Source: Thiorhodovibrio litoralis (GTDB lineage: Bacteria; Pseudomonadota; Gammaproteobacteria; Chromatiales; Chromatiaceae). Taken from it: DNA of 64,000 nt. The stretch spans positions 558,001 to 622,000 of the forward strand of contig NZ_CP121473.1 of assembly GCF_033954455.1 (NCBI RefSeq), read 5' to 3'. Under the pieces are notes generated by a model. It saw only the letters and a program-made list of their open reading frames with translations. It was not told the DNA's origin and did not search any database. This document shows positions 35,263 through 64,000 of this stretch, one piece after another (the stretch's first letter is position 1; the number at the start of each line of letters is the position of its first letter). The translations under genes were made by a program, and so were the position numbers.

Positions 35263-37143
35263 ATGTTTATGTTTACCGACAGTGAAAGGAATCCTGCAGT
35301 TGCCTCGGCAACCCCCTCTGCGCTTCAGGTGTTAGATTCGCCCGGGTCCTCGGCTCCCCACATGATGGAAGAGCATGCGCTCAGCCTCGACGACTACATT
35401 GCGATCCTCAAGCGCCGCAAGTGGCAGCTCATCATCCCCGTGGTCGTGCTGTCGGTGATCGCCATGATCACTGCGGTTTTGCTGCCGCCGACTTATCGCT
35501 CAACGGCCACCATTCTGATCGAACAGCAAGAGATCCCTGACGAACTGGTTCGCTCGACCGTCACCAGCTTCGCTGACCAACGGGTGCAGACCATCAGCCA
35601 GCGGGTCATGACCACCGAGAATCTCGGGAAGCTCATTGAAAGCTATCATCTTTATCCGGAGTTGATGCAGCGCTACGGTCTGGTTTCTGCCGTCGAGCAG
35701 ATGCGCGAAGATATCAAGCTCGAGATGATCAGCGCCGATGTCATCGATCCCCGTAGTGGTCGCCCAGGTGAAGCGACCATCGCCTTCTCTCTGTCTTTCG
35801 AGAGCGAGTCGCCCGCCATGGCGCAGCGCGTCGCCAACGACATCACCTCGCTCTTTCTCAGCGAGAATTTGAAAGACCGTCAGGAATCGGCCAAACAGAC
35901 CGCAGTCTTCCTGCAAAACGAGGCCAACAAGCTCGCCGATCGGCTTTCCTTGCTCGAGGCGAAGTTGGCGGAGTTCAAAGAAAAGCATGGCGATAGTCTG
36001 CCGGAGCTCAAAGCGCTCAACATGCAACTGATTCAGCGCACTGAGGATCATTTGCGCGACACCGAACAGGCGGTGCGCACCCTGCAGGAGCGAAAAATCT
36101 ATCTGGAAGGGCAACTCGCGCAGATCGATCCCTACAGCGAGCTGTTCTCTTCCGATGGCAGACGCGTGCTCGGGCCGGTGGATCGGCTGAAGGCGCTCGA
36201 GGCGGAGTATGCGGAGGTGGCGGCGCGTTATTCGAGCCAGCATCCTGAGCGCATGCGCCTTGAACGCGAAATCGCCACCCTGCGCCAGCAAGTCGGGAAA
36301 TCCGCGAATGTCACGGCAGGGCTCGAGCGGGCCTTGGATGCGCAGCAGGAGGAACTGGCGGATCTGCGCAAGCGCTACTCGAACGAGCATCCAGACGTCA
36401 AAGCCTTGACCAGTGCCATCGCGATTACCAAACGCCAGCTCGCGACAGCAAGGAAGGCTGGTTCAGCTGATCCAGCAGGCGTGTCCGACGCTGATAATCC
36501 CGCCTACGTTCAACTCCAGGCCCAATTGCACTCGGCAGACGTGGAGCTGCGCTCGCTTCAGGAATCTCGCGAGGAGACCCGCACCAAGCTTGCCGAGCTG
36601 GAGCAGCGCATCACCAAGGGCCCGAGAATCGAGCAAGAGTACCAGGCATTGACGCGCGACCATGAAAATGCCATGGCAACCTATAGCGAGGTCAAGCAGC
36701 GCCTGGTGGCAGCCGAACTCGGCGAGGCGATGGAGACCGAGCGCAAAGGGGAGCGTTTCTCCCTCATCGAGCCACCGCTATTGCCTGAGCAGCCGGCGAA
36801 GCCGAACCGGCTCGCGATCGCCTTCCTTGGGCTGGTGCTTGCGTTTGGCGGAGGCGTCGGCAATCTCGCGTTGCGCGAGGCGTTGGACAGAAGCGTGCAC
36901 GACGTCCGTGACATGGAGATGATCATCATGGCCCCACCCTTGGCTGTGATCCCCTTCATCGAGACCGAAGCCGATATCCGCCGGCGCAACAGGCAGAGGT
37001 TGCAGCTCATACTCGGCAGTATTCTTGCTGTGACATTGGTAACAGGCGCTGTGCATTTATTCGTAATGCCGCTTGACGTCGCCTGGTTCAAGGTTCTCGA
37101 CCGGGCAGGTCTGTTGAATACCGCCCCACCTAGCGCGCGCTGA
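35263..37143 (+). CDS. GumC/Wzz-type polysaccharide chain-length determinant
   Basis: A 626-residue inner-membrane polysaccharide co-polymerase. The Wzz domain begins with SLDDYIAILKRRKWQLIIP and the first membrane helix (about 53-75), followed by LPPTYRSTATILIEQQEIP. Long coiled-coil segments run over about 200-330 and 345-470. The end has the GumC/GNVR-like region GPRIEQEYQALTRDHENAM, a Pro-rich motif (EPPLLPEQPAKPNR), a second helix (about 516-535) and a third near 580-602. The C-terminal tail is short. It should set the chain length of the exopolysaccharide with the CpsD-like ATPase encoded 8 nt downstream. Confidence 0.9.
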   Translation: MFMFTDSERNPAVASATPSALQVLDSPGSSAPHMMEEHALSLDDYIAILKRRKWQLIIPVVVLSVIAMITAVLLPPTYRSTATILIEQQEIPDELVRSTVTSFADQRVQTISQRVMTTENLGKLIESYHLYPELMQRYGLVSAVEQMREDIKLEMISADVIDPRSGRPGEATIAFSLSFESESPAMAQRVANDITSLFLSENLKDRQESAKQTAVFLQNEANKLADRLSLLEAKLAEFKEKHGDSLPELKALNMQLIQRTEDHLRDTEQAVRTLQERKIYLEGQLAQIDPYSELFSSDGRRVLGPVDRLKALEAEYAEVAARYSSQHPERMRLEREIATLRQQVGKSANVTAGLERALDAQQEELADLRKRYSNEHPDVKALTSAIAITKRQLATARKAGSADPAGVSDADNPAYVQLQAQLHSADVELRSLQESREETRTKLAELEQRITKGPRIEQEYQALTRDHENAMATYSEVKQRLVAAELGEAMETERKGERFSLIEPPLLPEQPAKPNRLAIAFLGLVLAFGGGVGNLALREALDRSVHDVRDMEMIIMAPPLAVIPFIETEADIRRRNRQRLQLILGSILAVTLVTGAVHLFVMPLDVAWFKVLDRAGLLNTAPPSAR

Positions 37144-40719: not shown

Positions 40720-41469
40720 ATGAAAAAATCTATCTTTGTAGCGGGCCTAGCGCTCGCAACCTTGACCGGTGCCAATGCGTATGCTGCGGCTATTATCACA
40801 GAAATGCCATATTATGGTGCATACTTCACCGCTATCAAAGCCGCCGGTGGGACCGTTGAGGATTTTGAAAAGGAAAAATATGTTAAAGGGCCATGGAACA
40901 ACAGCTGGGGCAGCCCCGTTGGCGACTTCTACGGGTTGGGCGGTACTGGCAGCGGAACCACCTGCCAAGCCTCTGACAACTGTGAGAAAATTGCTCTAAC
41001 CGACTACTCAATTAACGGTCAATACGGCATTTTCCCTAACGACCAAGGTAAAGCGCTTAATTCAAACGACAAGGGCGGAATACAATGGAACGTCAATAGC
41101 GCAACTGGGTTTGATATGGTCGCATTTGCAATCCGTGACGCGGCTGACCAGTCGGGAACGCAGTTCAAAATCACGGCCATGTCGGCTGACGGTGGTACCA
41201 TTTTCGCCGAGCAGTTGTTTACAGGTGGATGGGATAACGAAGAAGTAAATGTGTTTGAGATTAAGTTTGATACCGTGTTGAATAATGCGATAGTCAAGCT
41301 GGAAAGTCTAAAAGCAGATGGTGCTACTTACAGGTTAAACGATGCTTTTACGCTTGATGCCGTATCAATGGGTAAAACCGCCGTTCCTCTGCCAGCAGCC
41401 GCTTGGCTGTTCCTAAGTGGTTTGGGCGTGCTGGGCGCAATGCGCAAGCGGAAGCAGGTAGTCGCCTGA
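40720..41469 (+). CDS. Exported VPLPA-CTERM surface protein 3
   Basis: A 249-residue exported protein with signal peptide MKKSIFVAGLALATLTGANAYA and a globular, beta-rich body with one likely disulfide (CQASDNC near 87-93). It ends in a canonical VPLPAAAWLFLSGL sorting helix followed by GVLGAMRKRKQVVA. Unlike proteins 1 and 2 the signal is the exact VPLPA-AWLFLSGL type. A ribosome site (AAGAGG) precedes the ATG. A strong terminator follows, ending the three-gene group. Function unknown; probably an exopolysaccharide-associated surface protein. Confidence 0.83.
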   Translation: MKKSIFVAGLALATLTGANAYAAAIITEMPYYGAYFTAIKAAGGTVEDFEKEKYVKGPWNNSWGSPVGDFYGLGGTGSGTTCQASDNCEKIALTDYSINGQYGIFPNDQGKALNSNDKGGIQWNVNSATGFDMVAFAIRDAADQSGTQFKITAMSADGGTIFAEQLFTGGWDNEEVNVFEIKFDTVLNNAIVKLESLKADGATYRLNDAFTLDAVSMGKTAVPLPAAAWLFLSGLGVLGAMRKRKQVVA

Positions 41470-45897: not shown

Positions 45898-47322
45898 ATG
45901 GATGCACAGCTCCCCTCCGCTCGCAAAAGGCCTATTCTGGCTGAATTTCAAGCCGTGTCGTTATTTTTCTGGATCTCCGACGCCGCCATGATCATGGTCG
46001 CGTTGAATGGGCTGACGCGTCGGTTTGATGCGGGATGGGGCATCAATTACTGGATGGCTGCCCTGCTTGGAGCTCTGATTTTCAACATTTATGCGCGACC
46101 AGCCGGGGCCCATCGCAGTTGGCGGGGGCAGCACGCAAGCCGGTTCGTCTGGCCGGTGATCAACGCCTGGGTGGCGACGGTGGCCACTCTCATTGCGGTT
46201 GCCTTTGTTACCAAAACGTCTTACGAATTTGCACGGGCAGTCATGCTGAGCTGGTTCGTATTAGTGCCTGTGATCATCTTAGCGTGGCGGTACCTCGGCA
46301 TCCGAGTGGCTAGAAAAGCATATAACGCAGGCCGGAATATGAAGCACGTAGCGGTTGCTGGCTCTGTCAGCGATTCTACGGAGCTCATCAGTGTGATTCA
46401 GGGCAACCCAAGTCTCGGTCTCCGCCTAGTCGGCCTTTACGATGATCGCAAACTCGACAGAGAGGGAGACGCAAGCACCCATGACGAGCATCGCCGGGGG
46501 GATTTCGATGACCTTGTTACGGCGGCGCGGATGGGTATTGTTGACTTGGTGTACATTACCCTGCCCCTCAAGGCGGAGAACAGAATATCCGAGCTCATTC
46601 GCCACCTGTCGGACACCACGGCCTCTATACATTATGTGCCGAACTTTCTGACATTCGACCTCTTGCACTCGCGCTGGATCTACCTCGGTTCGATCCCGAC
46701 GCTCAGCATCCGCGAGACCCCGTTTTATGGCGCTGATGGCTGGCTCAAGGCCCTTGAGGACCTCTTGCTGACGGTGGTTGCGCTTCTGCTAAGCGCTCTG
46801 CCAATGGCTATCATCGCGATTGCGGTGAAACTGGATTCGCCTGGTCCGGTCATCTTCCGGCAGAAGCGCTATGGCCGCGATGGTCAAGTCATTTCGGTCC
46901 TGAAATTCCGCACCATGCGAGTCTGTGAGGATGGTAAAAAAATCACCCAAGCCACCAAGGATGACCCGCGCGTGACCCGCGTCGGTCGATTCCTCCGCCG
47001 GTATTCTCTCGACGAACTCCCCCAATTCCTGAACGTGTTGCGAGGAGAAATGTCCATCGTCGGCCCACGACCTCACGCTGTCGCGCACAGCGAAGAATAC
47101 CGCAAACTTGTACCTGGCTACATGCTGAGACACAAAGTGAAGCCTGGCATCACCGGATTGCCTCAGGTCAGCGGCCTGCGCGGCGAAGTGGACACCACGG
47201 AAAAAATTCGCAAGCGCGTCGAGTACGACATGCACTATATCCGCGAATGGTCTCTGTGGCTTGACCTGAAGATCATCTTTCTGACGACAATTCGAGTGAT
47301 AACTGACAAGGATGCCTATTAA
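45898..47322 (+). CDS. Undecaprenyl-phosphate sugar phosphotransferase (WcaJ/WbaP family)
   Basis: A membrane enzyme of 474 residues that starts a polysaccharide repeat by moving a sugar-1-phosphate, often glucose-1-phosphate, onto undecaprenyl phosphate. Four N-terminal helices lie within about residues 20-140, a CoA-binding-like domain spans about 150-270 ([16 protein letters not shown]), and a further helix near 285-308 leads to the catalytic part: [48 protein letters not shown] and [12 protein letters not shown]. These are the full Bac_transf motifs. It is probably the initiating enzyme for the exopolysaccharide of this locus. The sugar cannot be told from sequence; WcaJ-like length suggests hexose. 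Confidence 0.92.
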
Positions 47323-51778: not shown

Positions 51779-52470
51779 CAGTTTGCGTCGACCAAACCCC
51801 CGTTGACCCGCGGGGAAGGATAGCCTTGACGAAGGGCATCGCGTCATTTCCGCAAGCTAAGGACTATCGCGAACTCTAGCGATTCGGGCACCTAGTGCGG
51901 CAGGATACTTATCGGCCAGCGAAAAGATGCGCGCCCAGCAGAACACAATGATTGCGCCTTGAATGCACGTCGTTAATCTATGCTCGCGATGCGGCGAGAT
52001 AACCGGTCAGATATCGCGCTGATCGGGCGAGCCATCTAATCGCGCTGACCAAGAGCTCCGTCAAGTTGGAAGCTTGGGGTCCGCCATTTCAGAGCTTTGG
52101 GCTATACTCTAGAACATAATAAATTTTAGGCTAGTGCCTACCGTTAACCTCGCATGGTGGCACTGCACAGCAGCGATTGGAGTCCAGTGGTTTTGTCGCG
52201 CTGGATCGGTAACGAAGGGAGGGTGAAGGTGCCATCAGAGACGCGATCCGTTAAGCGCAATGATTACTGTGCCTGCTCCGTGAATCACGCGAGCTCTTGA
52301 TCAAGGTGCCTGCGGATCGCTGCCCCGGCGATCTCAGACCCAGCAGTCCGGCGTGACTTCTGAGGGCCGGCTGCAAATTGGTCGCTAATTTGGGGGGGGC
52401 GACCGGCGCCGAGACTACGACCGGTTGTTCTCAGAAGAGAGCCTATCCGCAGACTGCTCAGAGAGGGCTG
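51779..52470. other. Long intergenic stretch before the second fcl remnant
   Basis: About 690 bp without a recognisable gene on either strand. It holds a G8 run at 52388-52395 and the AT-rich patch 52105-52130 with TATACT (52105-52110), a possible -10 box. The longest frame, starting at 52378, only adds residues to fcl without family similarity. Confidence 0.3.
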
Positions 52471-53073
52471 ATGAAGATTTTCGTAGCTGGTGACCGGGGT
52501 ATGGTGGGTTCAGCCCTTCTGCGCCGGCTGCAAGCGGCAGATGGTGGCGGCAACCAGTACATCACCCGCACCCGCACGGAGCTGAATCTGGTCGACTCAG
52601 CCGCTGTTGAGCACTTTTTTGCAGAGCAACAGCCGGACCAAGTTTACCTGGCGGCTGCCAAAGCCGGCGGCATCTGGGCCAATAATCACCTCCCGGCCGA
52701 ATTTATCTATCAGAATTTGATGGTTCAGGCCAACGTGATCCACGCAGCCTGGCGCCATGGTGTGCAACGACTCCTGTTCCTCGGCAGTTCCTGCATTTAT
52801 CCGCGCCTAGCCGACCAACCGATGACGGAAGATGCCCTGCTGACCGGCCCCTTTGAGCCGACGAACGAGCCCTACGCGGTCGCCAAAATTGCCGGAATCA
52901 AGCTCTGCAAGTCCTACAATCGGCAATATGGCAAGGATTTTAGAAGTGTGATGCCGAGCAATCTCTATGGTCCGGGGGATACTTTCCACCCGCGTGCCCG
53001 CATCCCGCTCGGAGACGGGCTCGCCCAGACCGATGCATGGTTTGTCGAGCACCAGAACAGCCTGTGCACCTAA
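52471..53073 (+). pseudogene. fcl: GDP-L-fucose synthase, C-terminally truncated
   Basis: From ATG 52471 (GAGAGGG upstream) the frame reads [20 protein letters not shown] through the catalytic region: [10 protein letters not shown] with the Ser, and [14 protein letters not shown] with the Tyr-x3-Lys pair. The homology ends at [12 protein letters not shown], near residue 174 of some 320; the last 26 residues ([14 protein letters not shown] and on) are unrelated, and the substrate-binding C-terminal domain is missing. It should be inactive. It lies directly before the damaged gmd, the gene for the preceding step of GDP-fucose synthesis. Confidence 0.85.
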
Positions 53074-53111
53074 CACATTACGATATTAAGAAAGCCCGTG
53101 ACAACACGTCC

Positions 53112-53933
53112 ATGAAGACAGCTCTCATCACCGGTATCACCGGCCAAGACGGCGCCTATCTCGCGGAATATCTGCTTGAGAAAGGCTATGTGGTGCACAG
53201 CATCAAACGACGCAGCTCGCTCTTCAACACCGACCGCATCGACCATCTGTATCAGGACCCGCATCAAGCGGACCGGCGCTTCGTCCTGCACCATGGCGAC
53301 ATGACCGACAGCTCGAGTCTGATCCGCATCATGCAGCAGGTGCGACCGGATGAAATCTATAACCTAGCCGCGCAAAGGTCCTGCAACGGCATCCGGTACA
53401 ACCATAAAAGCCCCATCCGCGGCGAGACCTTCGTAACCCGCAAGATCACCCGCGGGCTGGCGCGCATCAAGCTCGGCCTGCAGGAGCGGATTTACCTCGG
53501 CAACATGGATGCCAAACGCGACTGGGGCCATGCCAAGGACTATGTGCGCATGCAATGGATGATGCTGCAGCAGGATCAGCCCGAGGATTTTGTCATCGCC
53601 ACTGGCAAGCAATTCTCGGTGCGCGAATTCGTCGAGATCGCCGCGCGCGAGATCGGCATCGACATCCGCTGGGAAGGCCAGGGCGTCGAGGAGAAAGGCT
53701 ATGACCAGAAAACCGGCGCCTGCCTGGTGGAAGTCGACCCGCGCTACTTCCGCCCGGCCGAGGTCGAGACCTTGCTCGGCGACCCGAGCAAGGCCAAGTA
53801 GAAACTTGGCTGGGAGCCAGAGATCAGATTCGCCAGCCTGGTGGCGGAAATGATGCGTGAGGACTTGAAGGAAGCCGAGCGCGATGCCCTCTGCACCCGA
53901 GAAGGCTATGCTGTCCATCGCTACAATGAATAA
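53112..53933 (+). pseudogene. gmd: GDP-mannose 4,6-dehydratase with core deletion and amber codon
   Basis: The frame from ATG 53112 begins normally: [20 protein letters not shown], then [15 protein letters not shown] and DEIYNLAAQ. At about 53376-53382 it jumps in frame to [20 protein letters not shown]. Roughly 75 residues are lost, including the Thr/Glu and Tyr-x3-Lys catalytic residues. The C-terminal part is normal ([33 protein letters not shown]) until a TAG at 53799-53801 replaces a codon after PSKAK. The frame then continues KLGWEPEIRFASLVAEMMRE to the natural TAA at 53931-53933. Two independent lesions show that it is dead. Confidence 0.9.
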
Positions 53934-54773: not shown

Positions 54774-55901
54774 TACCCGTTGGATACAGGTTTTCGGCCC
54801 TCAAATAGATGGCACTATTTCGAAATTATCAGTTAGCAGTGACCTTAAGCCATCTCGATGTTTCTCCAGATTGTTGAAAAATTCACTGCACGCATCTTCG
54901 TATTCTGCGAATGTCTCGTAATAGGTGTTATAGAGAATCTTGCGTTTAAAGAATTTCCAAAATCGTTCTATTAAATTCAAATTGGGTGAATAAGGTGGAA
55001 GAGGAACAAGCTCTATCTTTGAGGTTTTCAGGTAATCACTTACTTTCTTCGCTTTATAGTAACCCGCATTATCGCAGAAGATGGTGATCACGGACGCCTT
55101 GGGATACTGGCGCTCCACGTCGCGAAGCAGGTCAATGGTGGTCTCGGCATTGATGGTGTCTTCAAAGCGAACAGTGGCTTTCAGATCGGCGACATTGAGT
55201 GCGCCATTGATGTTGAGGCGTTGCCGACCGGTATTACTTTTCACATACCCACGCTTGCCGCGTTTGATCCATCCGCCAGCGAGGACGGGGTTGTGGTGTG
55301 GATGGACGGCGTCCATGAAAATAATAACGTCTTGATCTTGAAGATTTTCCTTCAGCGCCTTGTAGTCCTCGACAAAGGCTTTTTGCTTGTCCTCGTCGGG
55401 CTTGCCTGGTACCAGCTTGGGCTTCTTGTAACGATAGCCGAGACGATGCAGCACGGCGGTCATGCCAGAGAGACTGAAGGTGACACCTAAGTGTTCTTTG
55501 ACCCAACTGCGCACGCCTTCAGCAGTTTGATAGATATGATCTTGCAAATGCTTATCGAGTTCCGCCAACTGTGCTTCGTTCAGGAGCGCTTCACTGCCCA
55601 CATAGTTCATGCGCATCAGCTGCTCAAGCCCGCCGCGGCGATAGTTTTTAAAGTATGATCGCGCGGTATCGGGGTCCATCAACAGCGCTTCGGCCACCTC
55701 CGAGGGGCTGAAGCCCTCGGCCAACAGGATCACGGCATTGATGCGATAGGCCTCGCGCACGTTGCTCGCCTTCCTATGCGCGGCACGCAGATCTTGAAGC
55801 TGGTCAGTGGTGAGACGGTAGTCGGTCATGGGGCAAGCCTACCGCATTTTTTCAGTGACTTCCAAGGGTAACCTCAACCGAAAACCTAAGTAAGACTGGT
55901 A
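54774..55901 (-). mobile_element. IS630-family insertion sequence
   Basis: The ends are inverted repeats. The left end reads TACC, ten less similar bases, then AGGTTTTCGG (54788-54797); the right end, read on the other strand, has the same TACC and AGGTTTTCGG at equal spacing. Both ends are flanked by a TA dinucleotide (54772-54773 and 55902-55903), as expected for IS630/Tc1-type elements, which insert at TA and duplicate it. The element is 1,128 bp with one intact transposase gene. It separates the damaged methyltransferase from the flippase gene. Confidence 0.82.
54801..55829 (-). CDS. IS630-family transposase
   Basis: A 342-residue DDE transposase. The N-terminal half has two HTH parts (FSPSEVAEALLMDPDTARSY; GVRSWVKEHLGVTFSLSGM). 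The catalytic triad is D173 (IFMDAVHPHH), D253 (IFCDNAGYY) and E289 (NLNLIERFW) with 35 residues between the second Asp and the Glu, the usual IS630 spacing. No frameshift is needed and all motifs are intact, so the element may be active. It fills nearly the whole of the insertion sequence. Confidence 0.95.
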   Translation of the reverse strand: MTDYRLTTDQLQDLRAAHRKASNVREAYRINAVILLAEGFSPSEVAEALLMDPDTARSYFKNYRRGGLEQLMRMNYVGSEALLNEAQLAELDKHLQDHIYQTAEGVRSWVKEHLGVTFSLSGMTAVLHRLGYRYKKPKLVPGKPDEDKQKAFVEDYKALKENLQDQDVIIFMDAVHPHHNPVLAGGWIKRGKRGYVKSNTGRQRLNINGALNVADLKATVRFEDTINAETTIDLLRDVERQYPKASVITIFCDNAGYYKAKKVSDYLKTSKIELVPLPPYSPNLNLIERFWKFFKRKILYNTYYETFAEYEDACSEFFNNLEKHRDGLRSLLTDNFEIVPSI

Positions 55902-56102: not shown

Positions 56103-57395
56103 ATGCGCAATAGATTATCGAATTTGAATGCTCGCCTATTTGGCGGGCCGGCTAAAGCGGTTTTTCAAGGAATGGGAACGCTGGCGCTTGGTACTGGGTT
56201 AGCGCGGCTGATTGGGGTTGCCTCGATCCCGGTGTTGACACGCATCTACAGCCCCGAGGACTTCGGCATACTATCGATTTTCACTGCGGTGATCTCTATG
56301 ATCGTGCCGGTGCTGACGCTGCGCTATGTAGTCGCGATCCCGCTCCCTAGACATGATGGGATGGCAATGAACATCATGGCATTGTCCGCAGCCTCGATTT
56401 TTACCATCACGCTGGTGATCAGCGTCGGCTTGTGGTTTTTTGGCCCGCTACTGCTGGGGCTGATGTCGATGGAGGTTCTAGCCCCCTATTGGTGGCTAAT
56501 CGCACTGGGAGCTTTTGGCATCGGAACATATGAGTTGCTGTCGATGTGGGCGACTCGACGCAAAGCTTATAAAGATGTCGCACAGACTCAAGTTTTCCAA
56601 TCGGCAATTGGCTCGCTTATTAAGATTGGCTTGGGTCTGCTGGCGATCAAGCCCCTTGGATTGTTGCTCGGTCATGTTATCGCCCAAAGTGGAGGAATTG
56701 GATCATTTATCCTAAGGTTTTGGCCAGACTTTCGACGCACGAAGAGAATGATCACGCGACAACGCATGAGGTTCGCGGCAGGATACTTCCGTGGCTTTCC
56801 GGTCTTTCGGCTGCCGTCGCAGTTCTTGCTGGTGTTTTCGATGCAGGCCCCGCTTCTGTTTACAGCAGCGGTTTATGGTGCCGATGCGACTGGAGCACTT
56901 GGATTGGCGCTTACGGCATTGGCTTTTCCAATGAGCTTGTTCGGACGGACGATGGGTAAGGCGTATTATGCAGAGGTGGCAAGTCTAGGAAAAAATCGCG
57001 TTAAAGAGGTAAGGTCGCTCACTATTTCAGTCATCAAAAGGCTTTTTCTTTTTTCTTTAATTCCTGCTGTCGCTCTATTTCTTATGGGGCCCTTTTTTTT
57101 TCAAGTGATATTCGGTGAAGAATGGATATTGGCTGGTAATATCGCGTCGGTGCTTTCAATCTATCTTGTTGGTCAGTTTATCTCATCTCCAGTCGTTCAG
57201 CTTCTCGACGTTTTCGGGCGTCAATCTGATTATCTGTTAATAAATGTTTTGAGAGCCATTATTTTAATTATTTTATTTGGTGCTGCACACAAATGGCAGC
57301 TACATATTATGACGACTTTTTTAGTATACTCAGTTGGTATGTTCCTTTTTTACATACTAACAATGCTTCGCGTTATGAGCTTTGTTCGGAATTAA
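56103..57395 (+). CDS. Wzx-type polysaccharide flippase
   Basis: A 430-residue inner-membrane protein of the MOP (PST/MATE-like) superfamily with about 12 hydrophobic helices. It opens with ALGTGLARLIGVASIPVLTR followed by IYSPEDFGILSIFTAVISM, a standard Wzx beginning. It should flip undecaprenyl-linked oligosaccharides across the membrane for the exopolysaccharide or O-antigen of this region. The base composition drifts from GC-rich at the 5' end to AT-rich at the 3' end. ATG 56103 has no good ribosome site; ATG at MGTLALGTGL is an alternative. No Wzy polymerase was recognised in the window. Confidence 0.88.
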   Translation: MRNRLSNLNARLFGGPAKAVFQGMGTLALGTGLARLIGVASIPVLTRIYSPEDFGILSIFTAVISMIVPVLTLRYVVAIPLPRHDGMAMNIMALSAASIFTITLVISVGLWFFGPLLLGLMSMEVLAPYWWLIALGAFGIGTYELLSMWATRRKAYKDVAQTQVFQSAIGSLIKIGLGLLAIKPLGLLLGHVIAQSGGIGSFILRFWPDFRRTKRMITRQRMRFAAGYFRGFPVFRLPSQFLLVFSMQAPLLFTAAVYGADATGALGLALTALAFPMSLFGRTMGKAYYAEVASLGKNRVKEVRSLTISVIKRLFLFSLIPAVALFLMGPFFFQVIFGEEWILAGNIASVLSIYLVGQFISSPVVQLLDVFGRQSDYLLINVLRAIILIILFGAAHKWQLHIMTTFLVYSVGMFLFYILTMLRVMSFVRN

Positions 57396-57798
57396 GAAAA
57401 TGAACAAATGTTCAATTGAGTACCTATCAATAATTAGCTCTTCTAGCTCGAGATATAATCACGCCACTGATTTTACAGTCGCCTATAGGGGAGTGATATC
57501 ATCTTGATTTTGCGATGCTATTTGATCATTAGTCCTTGTATTTCAAAGCTTAAAGAGTGAATAATTTTCTATGAGGTTTGTCAGAAATGATGATTTTAAA
57601 TAAAACATTGGTTATGATTTCTTTGGGTTTGGTGCCACGGTTAATGTGGTATCTTAAATTGATGGGGTTTCTAAAGCAAAACGGCCAAAGTGTATTAGTA
57701 TTAATCGCATTAAATCATATCCTGAAAAAATTCTAATTTTTATATCGCTAAATGCTCACTTAAATAATTCAATAAAACTTTACCATTCTACTGAAATT
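57396..57798. other. AT-rich stretch without a gene
   Basis: About 400 bp of AT-rich DNA following the flippase. The frames are short and broken. It may contain the ruined 5' part of the hexapeptide acyltransferase gene whose 3' end is at 58062, but I see no reliable protein similarity. Confidence 0.35.
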
Positions 57799-58062
57799 GT
57801 GGTTGGAGATGGCGTCCGGTTTGTGAGGATGATACTATTTAACAAACTCTCACAGTTGGAGGAGCAAGAATTGGTGATGCACAAAAAACATTATTACCCA
57901 GAGGTCGGGCGAAACACGGTCATATTCGCGGGCGCAGTGGTTGTCGGAAACATTAGAGTTGGCTGCAACTGTCGGATTGGTGCAAATTCAGTTGTGCTGG
58001 ATGATGTGCCAGATAATTCCACTGCTGTGGGCGCACCCGCGCGCGTGATCACTACCGACTAG
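57799..58062 (+). pseudogene. Hexapeptide-repeat acyltransferase, C-terminal remnant
   Basis: The frame ends with PEVGRNTVIFAGAVVVGN, then IRVGCNCRIGANSVVLDDV and PDNSTAVGAPARVI. This is the last turns of a left-handed beta-helix like that of serine acetyltransferase and sugar O-acetyltransferases, with the closing 'PxxxTAVGxPARVI' segment. The N-terminal helical domain and most of the hexapeptide coils (with the catalytic His) are missing. Upstream in the same frame is a short unrelated stretch. I take it as a 5'-deleted gene. It ends 27 nt before the MurA paralogue. Confidence 0.65.
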
Positions 58063-58089: not shown

Positions 58090-59358
58090 ATGCGGAAAAT
58101 GAACGCCATCAATAGTCTGACCCTTTTGCGCTCCTCGCTTAACGGCGTTGTCTCACTCTCCGGTGCCAAAAACTCCGCCTTGCGTCTGCTTGCCGCTAGC
58201 CTGCTTACCTCGGAAACGGTCACACTCACCAATTACCCCTCTGGTCTTCTGGATGCCCAAGTTCATGTGGATATGCTCACCGCTCTGGGCAAGACGGCTA
58301 ATCTCACATCCAGTAATGAGATCCGCATCAGCGAAACCCGCCCAATACACAGCCGCCTGACCTGGGAGGGCCGCTTGATCCGCAACACGCTGCTGATCCT
58401 TGGCGCACTGACCGCACGGTTTGGCGAGGGTAGCGTGCCGCTGCCCGGTGGCTGTAAGCTGGGTGAGCGCAAGTTCGATCTGCATGTCATGCTGCTTGAG
58501 CGCTTGGGTGCTCGTGTCTGGGAGGAAGGTGACTCCCTCTGCGCATCGGCTCCCGCTGGGCTGATCGGGGCCGAGATCCATCTTCCGCTCCGTTCGACCG
58601 GCGCTACGGAGAACGCCATCCTAGCGGGTACGCTGAGTAAGGGGATCACCCGGATCTGGAACCCTCATATCCGCCCGGAGATTCTGGATTTGATCGCGAT
58701 GCTTCGGCGCATGGGGGCGAAGATCCGAGTCTTTGGCCAAGAGCATATCGAAATCACCGGGGTTGAGGGGTTGCGGGGGGCGGAACATCGGGTGATTGCC
58801 GACAACATGGAAGCGATTACCTGGCTGGCCGCCGCCGTGATTACCGATGGCGATATCGAGATCCGCGATTTTCCCTGTCGTGATCTCGTTGTTGTACTGG
58901 CGCACCTGCGGGCAGCGGGGGCAAAGCTCTATCCGGGTGAAAACTCGTTGATTGTTCGCGGCGGGGCCTGCTATCCGATCGAGATCAGCACCGGCCCTCA
59001 CCCGGGAATCAACTCGGACGTGCAACCGATTCTGGCGGCTTGGGCGGCTAAGGCCCGCGGCGAGTCGCGTATCATCGACCTGCGCTTTCCCGGACGCTAT
59101 GGGTATGCCAACGAGATGGCTCGAATGGGTCTCCGCCACGAGGTGGAAGGTGACATGCTAGTTATCCATGGTCAAGGCGGTGGCCTTCATGGTGCTAAAG
59201 TCCGTGCACTAGATTTACGAGCGGGTGCAGCGCTTGCCCTTTGCGGATTGGCCGCTGAGGGCAAGACCGTGATCACGGATGCGTGGCAGATTTCGCGTGG
59301 CTATGTGAACTTTGCCGAAAAACTTCGGAGTCTGGGAGCCAATGTCCAATCAGACTGA
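58090..59358 (+). CDS. MurA paralogue (UDP-GlcNAc enolpyruvyl transferase) in a polysaccharide locus
   Basis: A 422-residue EPSP-synthase-fold enzyme related to MurA, which moves enolpyruvate from PEP to UDP-GlcNAc. Key residues are kept: K27 in SLSGAKNSAL (K22 of E. coli MurA), the catalytic Cys C122 in LPGGCKLGERKFDLH (C115), Asp in INSDVQP (D305) and Arg in SRGYVNF (R397). So it should be active. It differs from housekeeping MurA in many spots, for example WEGRLIRNTLLILG, and its neighbours are a flippase, a glycosyltransferase and a MurB paralogue. This points to a dedicated role in glycan precursor synthesis. An ATG at 58099 is an alternative start. It overlaps the next gene by 17 nt. 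Confidence 0.88.
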   Translation: MRKMNAINSLTLLRSSLNGVVSLSGAKNSALRLLAASLLTSETVTLTNYPSGLLDAQVHVDMLTALGKTANLTSSNEIRISETRPIHSRLTWEGRLIRNTLLILGALTARFGEGSVPLPGGCKLGERKFDLHVMLLERLGARVWEEGDSLCASAPAGLIGAEIHLPLRSTGATENAILAGTLSKGITRIWNPHIRPEILDLIAMLRRMGAKIRVFGQEHIEITGVEGLRGAEHRVIADNMEAITWLAAAVITDGDIEIRDFPCRDLVVVLAHLRAAGAKLYPGENSLIVRGGACYPIEISTGPHPGINSDVQPILAAWAAKARGESRIIDLRFPGRYGYANEMARMGLRHEVEGDMLVIHGQGGGLHGAKVRALDLRAGAALALCGLAAEGKTVITDAWQISRGYVNFAEKLRSLGANVQSD

Positions 59359-60340
59359 CAGGCGCGATTCGGGAACAACCGTCAGCGCAGCGGCGATTCG
59401 CGACCTGAAGCGGATCTGCCCTGGGGCGGTTGCCCGCGATGTTTCCCTCGCGAGCATCAGCCGCTGGCGTATCGGCGGCACTGCGGACGTGATCGTCCGC
59501 CCCCGAAACATCGACCAATTATCGAGGCTACGGGCCTGGTTACATGCTCAGGGGCTTGCCCAGGTGGTGATCGGCGCGACTACGAATCTGCTGTTTGCCG
59601 ATGAAGGGCTGCGGGCAATTTGCATACAAGTAGGTGAAGCATTTGCGTCACTTAGGGTCGATGGCTCGAAGATTACAGCAGGTGCGGGGGTCTGGGTGCC
59701 ACAACTTGCACGCAGGGCCATGGAAGCAGGCCTCGCAGGTATTGAGCATACCTGCGGCATTCCGGGCACGCTAGGCGGGTTGATCTGCATGAATGGTGGT
59801 AGTCAGCGCAAGGCAATTGCTAGCAATATCCTCTATGTCTTCACAGTCGACGAAAAGGGTCATTCATACACCCATCGACCGGATGATTTAGCTTTTTCTT
59901 ATCGAGCATCGATTTTTCAAGAAAGTACGGAGACTATTGTTCAAGCGGTTCTGGGCCTGGAACGGACAGATGACAAAAGAAAAATCCGGCGTGATATGAT
60001 CGAAACACTAAAGTTACGGCGCGAGAAATTTCCACGAAAAATACCAAATTGTGGTTCAGTGTTTGTCAGCAATCCTGAAATGTATCGAGAGCATGGTCCG
60101 CCAGGTGTTGTGATCGAGCGTTTGGGTCTGAAAGGATATACTCGTGGCGGTGCGCACATTTCAAGTCGGCACGCCAATTTCATTTTAAATCAGGGGGCCG
60201 CAAAAGCTCGGGATGTGCTCGAATTGATCTCGATTGTGCGGGCTCGCGCCAAAAGTGACATGGGAATAAATCTAAATACCGAAGTTCGGTACGTGCATCC
60301 TGCTGGGACGATTCTTTCAGCTCATGTTGCATGCATATAA
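59342..60340 (+). CDS. MurB paralogue (UDP-enolpyruvyl-GlcNAc reductase)
   Basis: A 332-residue FAD enzyme related to MurB, which reduces the enolpyruvyl group to lactyl, giving UDP-MurNAc. Visible motifs: SRWRIGGTADVIV at the FAD site, GATTNLL, GIPGTLGGLICMNGG, FSYRASIF, the catalytic Ser S239 in PNCGSVFVSNP and E314 in LNTEVRYV. The CGS form and the order of segments match type II MurB proteins. GGGAG 5 nt before ATG 59342 fixes the start inside the end of the MurA paralogue, so the two are translationally coupled. The product could be UDP-MurNAc or a related carboxyethyl sugar for a polysaccharide. Confidence 0.87.
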   Translation: MSNQTDRRDSGTTVSAAAIRDLKRICPGAVARDVSLASISRWRIGGTADVIVRPRNIDQLSRLRAWLHAQGLAQVVIGATTNLLFADEGLRAICIQVGEAFASLRVDGSKITAGAGVWVPQLARRAMEAGLAGIEHTCGIPGTLGGLICMNGGSQRKAIASNILYVFTVDEKGHSYTHRPDDLAFSYRASIFQESTETIVQAVLGLERTDDKRKIRRDMIETLKLRREKFPRKIPNCGSVFVSNPEMYREHGPPGVVIERLGLKGYTRGGAHISSRHANFILNQGAAKARDVLELISIVRARAKSDMGINLNTEVRYVHPAGTILSAHVACI

Positions 60341-60416: not shown

Positions 60417-61580
60417 ATGAAAGTTCTATATGTGATTAGCGTTTTCAATGAAGGGAGCGGAGGCCATTACCATTCTCTCGACCATATTTCACGAGCAGTA
60501 GCCGAAGTCGAGGACGTATCTATCGTCTCCATCGGAAAAAGAGAAAGCAATACGCTTTCCAGTAGCCCTCATTATCGAGGTAACATCCTTTTTAATGGAT
60601 GCAACTTTATCCGATTATTTAAACAGCTAAATGATTTCCTGACTAAGATCAATCCGGATATTATCCATTTTTTTGATGCATATTCCTATTCTATCGTAAC
60701 GCTGAATCCGTTGTATCGGCGCTGGCCAATGCTTCTAACCAAATGCGGCGGAAAAAATGAGATTCACTATCCAAAAGTAGCCGCTTTAACACTATTTAGT
60801 AAAGAAAACCTAGATTATTTTCTTTGTCAACGAAAGTTCAAAGACGCTTATATCTGCCTCATTCCTCATAGAGTGAGACAACTATCGCCTCCACAAGAAC
60901 TGATGCCAAATGTTTTCACGCACGATTCAAATACGTTTGTTTTTATGAGAATAGCGAGGATCGGACCATCGAAGCATAAGAGTATTTTGGATTCCATTAG
61001 ATTAATAGAGAATCTACGGCGATCATCAGCGGGCGTAAACGTCTGTCTGATTGTTGTTGGTTACCTTGAGGATTCGAACGTTTTTGCCGGATTAATGAAA
61101 GAAGTAGGATCTAAATCACTACCGGTGACATTTATTACAGACGAGAAAACAAGCAAACGCGGATCTGATTGCCTGATTGCAGCGGATGCAGTTATCGGAA
61201 CGGGTAGAGGAGTAATGGAGGCGAGTTCGCTAGGTCTTCCGATTTTATGCCCAACAAATAATAGCAACATACCAATATTAATTAAGAACGAGAAAATGAT
61301 GCATAATTTTTTTGATACTAATTTTTCTGGAAGAGTAACCGTTGATAGCGCGACTCTCAATGGTAATATGCTGGAAATACATAAGATGATATGTGACCTA
61401 GGCCATAGAAAAAAATTAAGCGCTCTATCTAAAATGTTTTTTAGAAATCATTTTGATCTGTCGCTTGCGAAGGATAAATACAGCCATGTTTATAATGACG
61501 TAATTAAAATCAATTTCAATAATTTTGGCGATTTATTTAATAAAGCAAGATATTGCTTGAGGTGTGTTCGACTTATGTAA
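60417..61580 (+). CDS. Glycosyltransferase, GT4-like
   Basis: A 387-residue cytoplasmic protein with two Rossmann-like halves. The N-terminus MKVLYVISVFNEGSGGHYHS has the glycine-rich loop of GT-B enzymes; NPDIIHFFDAYSYSI is the typical 'DxIHxH' strand. In the second half VFMRIARIGPSKHKSILDSI is like the 'xGRLxxxKG' segment, and AVIGTGRGVMEASSLGLPIL has the Glu of the GT4 donor-binding motif (E-A-x2-x-G-x-P). The gene is much more AT-rich than the core genome, as usual for transferred glycan genes. Donor and acceptor are unknown; sugar transfer for the MurA/MurB-containing locus is likely. Confidence 0.82.
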   Translation: MKVLYVISVFNEGSGGHYHSLDHISRAVAEVEDVSIVSIGKRESNTLSSSPHYRGNILFNGCNFIRLFKQLNDFLTKINPDIIHFFDAYSYSIVTLNPLYRRWPMLLTKCGGKNEIHYPKVAALTLFSKENLDYFLCQRKFKDAYICLIPHRVRQLSPPQELMPNVFTHDSNTFVFMRIARIGPSKHKSILDSIRLIENLRRSSAGVNVCLIVVGYLEDSNVFAGLMKEVGSKSLPVTFITDEKTSKRGSDCLIAADAVIGTGRGVMEASSLGLPILCPTNNSNIPILIKNEKMMHNFFDTNFSGRVTVDSATLNGNMLEIHKMICDLGHRKKLSALSKMFFRNHFDLSLAKDKYSHVYNDVIKINFNNFGDLFNKARYCLRCVRLM

Positions 61581-61657: not shown

Positions 61658-62935
61658 ATGAAAACTGAGAACAATGCACGCAAAAACATTAATGTTCATT
61701 ACGTAGCGATTTTAATGTTTTTCTCTAACATCTGTCTAGCCAATACTATCACGGTAGACACGGCGGGTAATGATAGCAATCCTGGAACAACTGCGTTGCC
61801 GGTTGCAACATTACAAAAAGCGATAGAGCTTGCAGAGTCCGATGATGTGATAGAGATAAAACCTGGAAGATATGAATCAACCGGCGGAATCAAAATAGAT
61901 CATAAGGAAAATATCACAATAAGTGGAGTAATTGACAATGGCGGCAATATCCCCGAATTCATGCTCATGGGTGGTTACGTTAACGGAGTAGAGTTTGGTG
62001 AAGAAACAAGAAATATTGTTCTCGAAAATATTTCTTTAACATGGATGTCTAATGAAGATGGTAATGTTCTGGCAATAGCGGGATCCGACATTACTGTAAG
62101 AAACAACAAACTATCATTTGATCAAAATTCGTTGGCGACTAAGTATGATGGAATTAAAATACTTGCAACTGCGAAGAACATTTTAATTCAAAGTAATGAG
62201 ATATCAAAAGCGCCACAGCAATGCATTGATGCGGTCGGCGGTATAGGCATTGTCGTCAGAGGTAACAAATTGCAAAATTGCGATTCTGGCATCGTGTTGA
62301 AAGGAGGGACTTCTGGTAACTTAATCGAATTCAATTTTATTCGAAATATGACGCACAGCGGCATCGGTCTCGGTGGGACAACGCTGCCAGAATATAGTCA
62401 AGCCGAATATGAGATTTCTTCAACAACCGCGAGGGAAAATATCATTACTTATGATGATCCAAACAATATCGGCGGCGGTATTTTTTTAAGGGGGGCTGAG
62501 AATTGTACTGTAGAAAACAATTCTATTTATGGTCCTGGTATTTACATTCAGGCCGGTGGAGATCCAGCCAAGTTAAACTATAAAAGCGCCAATAATGTTA
62601 TTAAATCCAATATTGTTTGGAGGACGGGGAACGACGGTATTTTAGTCGTCGACGCGGGAAATGATTTGGGTTTGACATTAGAAAGCAATTGTTACTGGAA
62701 AACCACTGGTTCTGGGGAGTTTAAGATTAACGGCACATGGCTATCTTATGCATCCTATCTCTCTGATATAAAGTTTGATTCGGAATCGGTATTTGAAGAC
62801 CCAGCGTTTTTAAATCCCCAGGATGGTGACTTTATAGTGCCTCCGACAAGTCCATGCTTCACAAAAGGTGCAGACCAAAGCAAGTTTACTAAATTAGATG
62901 CCGCGATACCTGCACCGACCCTCAGAATTGAATGA
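61658..62935 (+). CDS. Exported right-handed parallel beta-helix protein
   Basis: A 425-residue protein with a signal peptide (VHYVAILMFFSNICLAN) and a body of pectate-lyase-like repeats: DTAGNDSNPGTTALPVATLQ (DUF1565-like opening, a fold start common to polysaccharide-acting enzymes), then coils with N-N-x-I and NxI patterns such as ITVRNNKLSF, ILIQSNEISK and CTVENNSIYG. It may be a lyase, epimerase or a polysaccharide-binding surface protein; no catalytic residues can be named with safety. It is AT-rich like the preceding glycosyltransferase gene. It lacks a C-terminal sorting signal. Confidence 0.78.
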   Translation: MKTENNARKNINVHYVAILMFFSNICLANTITVDTAGNDSNPGTTALPVATLQKAIELAESDDVIEIKPGRYESTGGIKIDHKENITISGVIDNGGNIPEFMLMGGYVNGVEFGEETRNIVLENISLTWMSNEDGNVLAIAGSDITVRNNKLSFDQNSLATKYDGIKILATAKNILIQSNEISKAPQQCIDAVGGIGIVVRGNKLQNCDSGIVLKGGTSGNLIEFNFIRNMTHSGIGLGGTTLPEYSQAEYEISSTTARENIITYDDPNNIGGGIFLRGAENCTVENNSIYGPGIYIQAGGDPAKLNYKSANNVIKSNIVWRTGNDGILVVDAGNDLGLTLESNCYWKTTGSGEFKINGTWLSYASYLSDIKFDSESVFEDPAFLNPQDGDFIVPPTSPCFTKGADQSKFTKLDAAIPAPTLRIE

Positions 62936-63068: not shown

Positions 63069-63488
63069 TTGGCCGAGGGGATGTTAGAGCCGCATTGTGT
63101 CTATGATCCCGTGCGCAATCTCGCCTTCATGACGCTCGGGACCTCGCGCGAGACCATTGTCTTTGTCTATGACGCCATCGCGCGGGCTTGGCTCGCGCTG
63201 TTTAAGGCCCTCTATCCCCGCGCTACGGAGATCTTGCTGCAGTTCGATTGCGGTGGCGCTAACGCCGTGCGCTCCCTGCGCTTCAAAGAAGACCTGATCG
63301 CTTTGTCCGCGCAGCAAGGCCGGCGCTTGCGCATTGCCCACTATCCGCCCTACACCTTCAAGTGGAATCCTATCGTGCACCGCCTGTTCAGGCAGATCGA
63401 ACGACGCTGGCGCGGCGTAATCCTTGATACCCCGCAGAAGGGGCTCTTGACTGTTGAGCAGACCCGGACAAACACCGGTCTGCAAGCA
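63069..63488 (+). pseudogene. ISAzo13-type transposase fragment
   Basis: The frame reads HCVYDPVRNLAFMTLGTSRE, LYPRATEILLQFDCGGANAV, then RRLRIAHYPPYTFKWNPIVHRLF and RQIERRWRGVILDTPQ. These are the second half of ISAzo13-family transposases (LLITADCGGSNG..., HFPPGTSKWNKIEHRLFSFIS). The N-terminal half is absent and the last residues run into the end of a different, oppositely oriented element. No terminal repeats could be defined. Confidence 0.72.
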
Positions 63489-63499
63489 GGGCAATCGCA

Positions 63500-64000
63500 T
63501 CAAGGTCCACTAATATTCGAGTCGCCTGACATCGTCTTCCGCCGTGGCGGATCGGGCGGCTCAAAAAGCAGTTTTCCCAGGTATTTCTCATTCCACCCAG
63601 CCGTCAATCGCTTGTTGTGAATCCCCAGTTTATGCGTGGAGTCCTTTTTCAGCCGAGTCAGGGCAAGATGTCTCAAGACCGCGAAGTTCTCCCGTGCAAT
63701 CGGCTCGCGCAGGCGCGACTCATCTTCGCGAAAGCCGATATCCAGACACCAGTGAACCGCGTTTTCGATCCCCCAATGGCCGCGCGCGGCTGTAGCAAAG
63801 GTGTCGGCGTTGATGCCACAGCTCCCGATGTAGTAGCGTGTCTCTTGCGTGATTTTGCCGTTGCAGGTGCGCTCACTCTGCACCATGCCGATCATGTTCA
63901 TCCCCTTCCAGCCTTCGCTGTGTGGCACCGCGCTGAGGTCTTCAAGCGTGCGGTAGCGACGGGTTTCGACGCGGCCATGTCCGCTGTCGCGCGTTTCAAC
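63500..64000 (-). mobile_element. ISAs1-family transposase, 3' part, running off the window
   Basis: The minus strand is open from the right edge to 63500. It reads VETRDSGHGRVETRRYRTLE, MVQSERTCNGKITQETRYYI, then ARGHWGIENAVHWCLDIGF and REDESRLREPIARENFAVLR followed by HKLGIHNKRLTAGWNEKYL. This is the C-terminal half of ISAs1-type transposases (RETRYYISSL, HWGIENxLHWVLDVxFxED, NFAxLRxxAL). The last 25 residues after GKLLFE are not family-like, so the natural stop has been lost by abutment to the ISAzo13 remnant. The 5' half lies outside the window. Confidence 0.85.

Follow-up and report, generated by a model that had tools for sequence, protein, structure and literature searches.

A MurA-MurB pair in an exosortase-type polysaccharide locus of Thiorhodovibrio litoralis: a candidate mobile module for lactyl-ether sugars

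Dedicated nucleotide-sugar operons such as RmlABCD and Gmd-Fcl are found in Wzx/Wzy polysaccharide loci, and second MurA copies with roles in the cell wall are known from Gram-positive bacteria. In nikkomycin synthesis a MurA-like enolpyruvyl transferase, NikO, has been recruited to another acceptor, uridine monophosphate (UMP; PMC6801904). N-acetylmuramic acid (MurNAc) or isomuramic acid occurs in secreted glycans such as the lipooligosaccharide core of Psychrobacter arcticus; the same excerpt also cites muramic-type sugars for Yersinia ruckeri O1, Proteus penneri and Vibrio vulnificus ATCC 27562 (PMC4515632). Lactyl ethers give nuclear magnetic resonance signals at about 1.4 ppm (1H) and 78-80 ppm (13C) (PMC9912281, PMC4515632). 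Here we describe two overlapping genes, murA2 and murB2, in a stretch of 64,000 nucleotides of the T. litoralis genome (positions 558,001 to 622,000 of NZ_CP121473.1), called the window below. Searches of open-licence PubMed Central papers brought up no glycan locus described as having its own MurA and MurB, a weak absence, and an excerpt of PMC11766843 does not mention MurA or MurB.

Our results suggest that the pair serves as a private, horizontally transferred module for a lactyl-ether sugar, linked to uridine diphosphate (UDP), of Wzx-dependent polysaccharides. This reading, which covers UDP-MurNAc, has a probability of about 0.78. It is built on features seen directly, namely intact genes, catalytic residues, separate clades, recurrent adjacency, a glycan context and the exchange of two MurA types (A2 and Ab) against one MurB2 clade.

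Relation of the pair to housekeeping MurA and MurB

Both open reading frames (ORFs) are intact and confirm the coordinates given in an earlier note on this DNA, including the overlap of 17 nt (59342-59358). MurA2 matches Pfam EPSP_synthase (PF00275, 235.5 bits) and passes the broader subfamily model NF006873 (383.2 against 297); on the murA equivalog model TIGR01072 it scores 369 bits, under the cut-off of 392.7. MurB2 matches MurB_C (90.9 bits) and FAD_binding_4 (59.9 bits) and passes TIGR00179 (189.4, cut-off 144.5) and PRK13905 (269.6, cut-off 259). The AlphaFold models have a mean predicted local distance difference test of 91.1 for MurA2 and 90.3 for MurB2. The twelve best PDB matches of MurA2 are all MurA, with template modelling (TM) scores of 0.91-0.93, and the best match of MurB2 is MurB 4pyt.

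The T. litoralis genome (5.47 Mb, one contig) carries three EPSP_synthase-family genes and two MurB genes. One of the former is taken to be AroA, and separate housekeeping copies of both murA and murB are present, in contexts that look ordinary with neighbours named by eye (Table 1). MurA2 shares 36% identity with the housekeeping MurA of its own genome and 39% with that of E. coli. In BLAST comparisons with the window's MurA2, full-length A2 proteins reach 57.9-77.9% identity and every other MurA row at most 40.3%. For MurB2 the relatives lie at 40.8-53.2% and every other MurB row at 37.4% or less, the top one being a partial row.

In trees, the MurAs of polysaccharide loci form two sister clades, A2 (which includes the window's) and Ab, and MurB2 forms one. 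A2, Ab and housekeeping MurA each make up one side of a branch, with support from 100/99 to 100/100. The first MurA tree held 13 A2, 7 Ab and 33 housekeeping rows (15 of 29 relatives' MurA loci plus others), and the second, with its alignment, held 25, 14 and 32 (hk_Roizman dropped). The third took 12 of the 25 A2 and 8 of the 14 Ab rows together with 36 housekeeping rows that include E. coli, Bacillota and Actinomycetota (hk_Roizman, hk_Pelagicoccus, hk_Balneolia and hk_L015 dropped), and split the two groups from the housekeeping rows at 100/100. Sampling of housekeeping MurA is limited in these trees. Likewise, 22 MurB2 proteins part at 100/100 from 26 housekeeping MurB, whose rows were hand-picked (26 in the tree, 24 in the alignment). 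The earlier note had named two findings that would speak against it: that these are the only murA and murB of the genome, or that the pair clusters with housekeeping copies. Neither holds, because housekeeping copies exist and the pair forms its own clades.

The catalytic residues are kept, as had been claimed. Lys27 and Cys122 of MurA2 align with Lys22 and Cys115 of E. coli MurA (counted over 31 of 33 housekeeping MurA rows). Lys22, Asn23, Arg91, Cys115, Arg120, His125, Asp231, Asp305, Arg331, Asp369, Arg371 and Arg397 (E. coli numbering) are kept in 25/25 A2 and 14/14 Ab proteins, apart from one Ab row that is gapped at 22 and 23 (Lys22 in 13/14); both clades therefore have the catalytic set of Lys22, Cys115, Asp305 and Arg397. 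In MurB2, the catalytic Arg188, Ser239 and Glu314 are invariant in all 14 aligned proteins, and Arg188 and Glu314 are also conserved in 24 housekeeping MurB. A stretch reading MNGGSQRK has Gly152, Ser154 and Arg156 in 22/22 MurB2.

One could argue that the pair is a spare set of peptidoglycan-precursor enzymes, kept for dosage, as a backup or for fosfomycin tolerance. The enzyme families are those of the peptidoglycan MurA and MurB, and the Gram-positive second copies provide a precedent. We nevertheless regard a spare pair as very unlikely, for the following reasons. First, the pair recurs in glycan loci and a long branch separates it from the housekeeping enzymes. Second, Cys115, the fosfomycin target, is kept in 25/25 A2 and 14/14 Ab proteins, which makes target-based resistance unlikely. 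Third, the neighbourhood of the pair within the window showed no further mur or fts gene, in agreement with the earlier note. With the cysteine kept and the context wrong, a fosfomycin or backup role was rejected.

The pocket differs from that of housekeeping MurA. Val163, present in 32/32 housekeeping rows, is Thr in 25/25 A2 and Val or Ile in Ab. Glu188 (32/32) is Arg in 25/25 A2 and Thr or Ser in Ab, and Ala186 (32/32) is His in A2 and Tyr in Ab. Arg232 (29/32) is Asn in A2 and still Arg in Ab, and Pro303 (29/32) is Asn in 25/25 A2 and Ile in Ab. Position 327, which is Ile, Val or Met in housekeeping rows, is Arg in all A2 and Ab. Of the housekeeping trio Val163, Glu188 and Pro303, A2 keeps none and Ab lacks Glu188 and Pro303. 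Among the residues of interest in the window's own MurA2 are Thr170, Arg195, Asn239, Asn308 and Arg332. By docking, Arg232, Glu188 and Val163 are contacts of the native ligand and Pro303 and Val327 contacts of other ligands (excerpt of PMC11628175); pocket positions were placed with this paper and with an excerpt of PMC8587927. These changes suggest an altered acceptor, although divergence alone cannot prove it. Possibly, and here we are less sure, the pocket residues point to an acceptor other than plain UDP-N-acetylglucosamine that differs between A2 and Ab. UDP-glucuronic acid may be a candidate acceptor, because the T. litoralis genome has two UDP-sugar dehydrogenase matches above the family cut-off.

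Alternatively, the pair could make ordinary UDP-MurNAc and raise its supply for a MurNAc-containing polysaccharide, which would be a special case of the lactyl-ether module. The catalytic, phosphoenolpyruvate (PEP)-binding and UDP-binding residues are kept, and MurNAc or isomuramic acid is known from secreted glycans (PMC4515632, in part). Still, we think ordinary UDP-MurNAc rather unlikely. A2 and Ab have other fixed residues at several positions that line the pocket, and a MurNAc polymer could use the housekeeping pool. In addition, A2 and Ab differ in their fixed residues and yet replace each other as partners of a single MurB2 clade (next section), which would be odd if both made the same product. 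The earlier note had proposed a dedicated supply of UDP-MurNAc, or of a similar carboxyethyl sugar, for a glycan. The private pair is well supported; as to the product, the changed pocket fits a carboxyethyl sugar at least as well as UDP-MurNAc.

Adjacency, partner exchange and spread

A scan of GTDB contigs with MurB2 returned 53 loci, 15 of them of the MurB2 clade (L036-L049 and L053); it misses members because it used six short peptides. MurA lies beside MurB2 in 12 of these 15 loci (in L053 with an acyltransferase gene between them), versus any MurA in 1 of the scan's 38 loci with housekeeping MurB. We then fetched 20 loci by MurB2 alone from the families of the Halomonas, Marinobacter and Qipengyuania genomes, and 19 have an adjacent MurA of type A2 (12) or Ab (7) and none of the housekeeping type. 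The remaining one, L207, is a short contig with MurB2 and a GT2 glycosyltransferase only and is probably the same contig as L040. Hence, the new loci proper number 19 and MurA is adjacent in all of them. The adjacency within glycan loci of other genomes, which the earlier note had proposed to look for, does recur.

The recurring gene order is Wzx, in some loci an EpsC-like acyltransferase, MurA, MurB2 and a glycosyltransferase. Wzx homologues lie 5' of the pair in L037, L038, L041, L043, L045, L047, L166, L194, L196, L198-L201 and L205, and MurB2 comes first in L096, L212 and L213. Of 38 contexts (24 A2, 14 Ab), 37 have a glycan gene (glycosyltransferase, flippase, initiating transferase or Wzz-like, counted by hand from BLAST labels and Pfam) no more than about six genes away; in L213 the matches are weak Wzz- and exosortase-like ones. 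The sole non-glycan context is an orphan MurA2 in L165, with the nearest such ORF about 7 kb away. This orphan (L165:7830-9203, Marinobacter segnicrescens) is the closest relative of the window's MurA2 (78%), and its genome also carries MurA2 next to MurB2 in L166 and MurB2 next to a GT2 gene in L039.

The acyltransferase homologues score 113-132 bits in the five tested, under the EpsC cut-off of 150. The gene lies directly beside murA in 9 of 22 A2 contexts versus none of 14 Ab contexts (Fisher p 0.006), a lead only, since the count was made by hand after seeing the data and includes related loci. The nine include the remnant in the window and L053, and the 22 leave out L036 and L209 (truncated upstream) and count three near-identical Rhizobium loci once. 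In the Ab locus L197 an acyltransferase lies directly 3' of MurB2. Other genes take the acyltransferase place in L200 and L201 (336-346 aa, between Wzx and murA2) and in the Ab locus L043 (5906-6739, a sulfotransferase, PF13469), and are possible alternative decorations of the same sugar. Upstream of MurA2 in Rhizobium etli lie an aminotransferase (L157:6327-7499, best model PseC, 230 bits) and a deacetylase (L157:7551-8387, best model BshB1, 68.7 bits), both below cut-off; they are a possible hint of amino-sugar chemistry.

The two MurA types seem to have been exchanged repeatedly against MurB2. When the tips of a 37-protein MurB2 tree carry the type of the MurA partner as label (23 A2, 14 Ab; L039, L040, L044, L207 and two of the three Rhizobium loci left out), the label changes eight times, and at least four of these changes are forced by well supported branches. 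A constraint that puts all Ab partners together is rejected by the approximately unbiased (AU) test (p 6.5e-47 for the 37 rows; p 1.7e-63 for a first set of 20 rows). Labels cluster above chance in the 37-row set, where 7-11 of 500 shuffles are as low, and not above chance in the 20-row set (329-339 of 500). Judging from these trees, inheritance and exchange both seem to occur.

The carriers behind the 15 MurB2 loci of the GTDB scan are scattered. Among Pseudomonadota they are Thioalkalivibrio, Marinobacter (two), Halomonas, Pseudotabrizicola, Maritimibacter, Roseinatronobacter, Qipengyuania and a gammaproteobacterium; the others are Pelagicoccus, two other Verrucomicrobiota, two Bacteroidota and one metagenome-assembled genome (MAG) of Balneolia. 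Environmental carriers include Marinobacter segnicrescens, Qipengyuania aestuarii and Pseudotabrizicola alkalilacus. All 14 carrier genomes searched (those of the 15 MurB2 loci except L040) have two or more MurB; 13 also have two or more MurA-like genes, AroA-like matches not counted, the exception being the Balneolia MAG. A search of 92 genomes, the window's own included, gave no match above 41% identity in any other genome; the two of the same genus yielded a single match apiece, at 38%. With a threshold that A2 alone reaches (E <= 1e-105), the only one of 321 genomes of the class to show MurA2 was the window's own. Surveys with MurB2 at E <= 1e-55 found it in 10/250 genomes of the Halomonas genome's family, 8/163 of the Marinobacter genome's and 5/249 of the Qipengyuania genome's. 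The Pelagicoccus genome's class gave 2/236, both already among the known loci, and the Roseinatronobacter genome's family 2/295, the second of which carries the gene block of a Qingshengfaniella plasmid.

On that plasmid an acyltransferase, murA2, murB2 and a GT2 gene form a compact cassette, alone among unrelated metabolic genes. Among the best 30 of 137 plasmid records matching MurA, seven carry a MurA2 with 57% identity or more, and MurB2 adjoins it in all seven. The GC content of the pair is 0.59 and 0.53, lower than that of housekeeping murA and murB (0.64 and 0.67). The patchy distribution over Pseudomonadota, Bacteroidota, Verrucomicrobiota and plasmids, the plasmid copies themselves and the lower GC read as spread by horizontal transfer. 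Three other candidates were rejected. A phage origin does not fit the 42 of 42 phage-collection records matching MurA2 at less than 60% identity (the best 10 of the 42 at no more than 39.5%, like housekeeping MurA), murA-murB neighbours on a Paenibacillus plasmid belong to an ordinary mur/fts cluster, and for a defence role PADLOC gave no match for four proteins.

The locus in T. litoralis

The pair lies inside an exosortase-type exopolysaccharide locus, as indicated by the PEP-CTERM-like protein, the exosortase and the polysaccharide genes around it (Table 1). Past the window's end follow a Wzy-like protein, four group-1 glycosyltransferases and the exosortase. Judged by its genes alone, the locus has what a Wzx/Wzy-type locus needs: an initiating transferase, Wzx, a Wzy-like protein, glycosyltransferases and Wzz. 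The earlier note had placed the pair between a Wzx flippase and a glycosyltransferase, and this is borne out with one addition, an acyltransferase remnant between Wzx and murA2; the glycosyltransferase-like match is weak. A Pfam search with the latter gene gave no match; its homologues also lie 3' of MurB2 in L038 and L053. The remnant has an open ORF with a start for its C-terminal part alone (57799-58062), and in several other A2 loci the homologue at this position is intact.

Table 1. Genes of the pair, its locus and the housekeeping copies (window positions unless a genome or L089 position is stated)
Feature	Position	Strand	Remarks
murA2	58090..59358	+	422 aa; enolpyruvyl transferase, polysaccharide clade A2
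murB2	59342..60340	+	ATG at 59342; 332 aa; enolpyruvyl-sugar reductase dependent on flavin adenine dinucleotide (FAD), polysaccharide clade
Wzx-type polysaccharide flippase	56103..57395	+	PF13440, 38 bits; upstream of pair
Hexapeptide acyltransferase remnant, EpsC-like	~57607..58062	+	tblastn of four intact homologues; between Wzx and murA2
Glycosyltransferase-like gene	60417..61580	+	first after pair; NCBIfam NF038229, 18.8 bits, cut-off 400
Initiating undecaprenyl-phosphate sugar transferase	45898..47322	+	PF02397, 224 bits, plus CoA_binding_3
Wzz-like chain-length protein	35263..37143	+	PF02706, 33.5 bits
PEP-CTERM-like protein	40720..41469	+	PF07589, 20.4 bits, slightly below cut-off 20.7
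Exosortase	L089:16413-17978		~12 kb past window end; PF09721, 244.5 bits
IS630-like transposase gene	54801-55829		named by eye
Transposase gene	63069-63620		DDE_Tnp_ISAZ013 match
DDE_Tnp_1 gene	starts 63500		63500-64000 in window
DUF772/DDE_Tnp_1_6 gene	L089:13467-15002		past window end
Housekeeping MurA	genome 4700512-4701714		precedes hisG-hisD-hisC (named by eye)
Housekeeping MurB	genome, around 5054450-5054734		among ftsW, murG, ftsQ, ftsA, ftsZ (named by eye)
Third EPSP_synthase-family gene	genome 1725775-1727013		taken to be AroA

After the glycosyltransferase-like gene comes a beta-helix/NosD-like protein (61658-62935) whose N-terminus resembles a signal sequence by eye; it could be a secreted enzyme acting on the polysaccharide. 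At 52378-53801 lie remnants of a GDP-fucose pathway, a truncated Fcl-like GDP-fucose synthase and an internally shortened Gmd (GDP-mannose dehydratase).

Could the pair be a relic, without present function and carried along in a decaying locus of this genome? The acyltransferase, gmd and fcl remnants would fit, as would the transposase genes that flank the pair on both sides. We consider a relic improbable, since both ORFs are full length, the catalytic residues are kept and Wzx, the glycosyltransferases and the Wzy-like gene are open. Moreover, the window's copy and the Marinobacter copy differ at 61% of third codon positions and at 22.5% of amino acids, which indicates a constrained coding sequence.

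Proposed function and known systems

In the lactyl-ether module that we propose, MurA2 would transfer enolpyruvate from PEP onto a hydroxyl of a UDP-sugar, and MurB2, with FAD and nicotinamide adenine dinucleotide phosphate (NADPH), would reduce the enol ether to a lactyl (1-carboxyethyl) ether. The locus would supply the glycosyltransferase that adds the acidic sugar to the repeat unit, and Wzx would flip the lipid-linked unit for polymerisation. A bolder version is tentative, and we give it somewhat less than an even chance: MurB2 would be a shared reductase and A2 and Ab, with different acceptors, swapped specificity cartridges in polysaccharide loci of at least three phyla, and the two enzymes would make up a mobile pathway, so far undescribed, to new UDP-lactyl-ether sugars.

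Several observations weigh against the proposed module. The locus in the window is partly decayed (acyltransferase, gmd and fcl remnants; transposases), and the pathway may therefore be no longer complete in T. litoralis. MurB2 stands without an adjacent MurA in L039, L040 (= L207, a short contig) and L044 (at a contig start), and Marinobacter L165 has a MurA2 with no MurB2 next to it. Long branches part A2 and Ab from housekeeping MurA, and for the second and third MurA trees the program gave a warning that long branches meet. Besides those placed by docking papers, part of the pocket positions are ones that we take to line it. The two chemical steps, the use of a UDP-sugar and the transfer into a polymer are what we infer.

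If the proposal is correct, it would explain the origin of lactyl-ether (muramic-acid-like) sugars in secreted polysaccharides, and the MNGGSQRK stretch of MurB2 and the fixed residues of A2 and Ab would be genome markers that predict such sugars. Peptidoglycan enzymes would have been recruited as a transferable module, and a 'murA' or 'murB' annotation in a glycan locus need not imply cell-wall synthesis.

How does the pair compare with what is known? Like RmlABCD and Gmd-Fcl, it consists of private precursor genes that travel with polysaccharide loci; unlike them it is recruited from peptidoglycan precursor synthesis and is expected to yield a lactyl ether. Housekeeping MurA (EC 2.5.1.7; E. 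coli MurA, 1UAE) has the same fold (TM 0.93 to 1UAE) and shares Lys22, Asn23, Arg91, Cys115, Arg120, His125, Asp305, Arg331, Asp369, Arg371 and Arg397 with MurA2. A2 differs from it at E. coli positions 163, 186, 188, 232, 302, 303, 327, 329 and 330, and MurA2 lies in a separate clade, below the TIGR01072 cut-off and in a glycan locus. Housekeeping MurB (UDP-N-acetylmuramate dehydrogenase; closest solved structure 4PYT) has the FAD-binding domain, catalytic residues and fold in common with MurB2, whereas MurB2 has a separate clade, the MNGGSQRK stretch, His136 in place of Phe and Pro254 in place of Ala. NikO matches the fold of the MurA2 model and is 25-27% identical to it in structural alignment; its acceptor is UMP, and the excerpt mentions no MurB partner (PMC6801904). 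The secreted glycans with muramic acid contain lactyl-ether amino sugars, as proposed here, in a source whose excerpt mentions no private MurA-MurB pair (PMC4515632).

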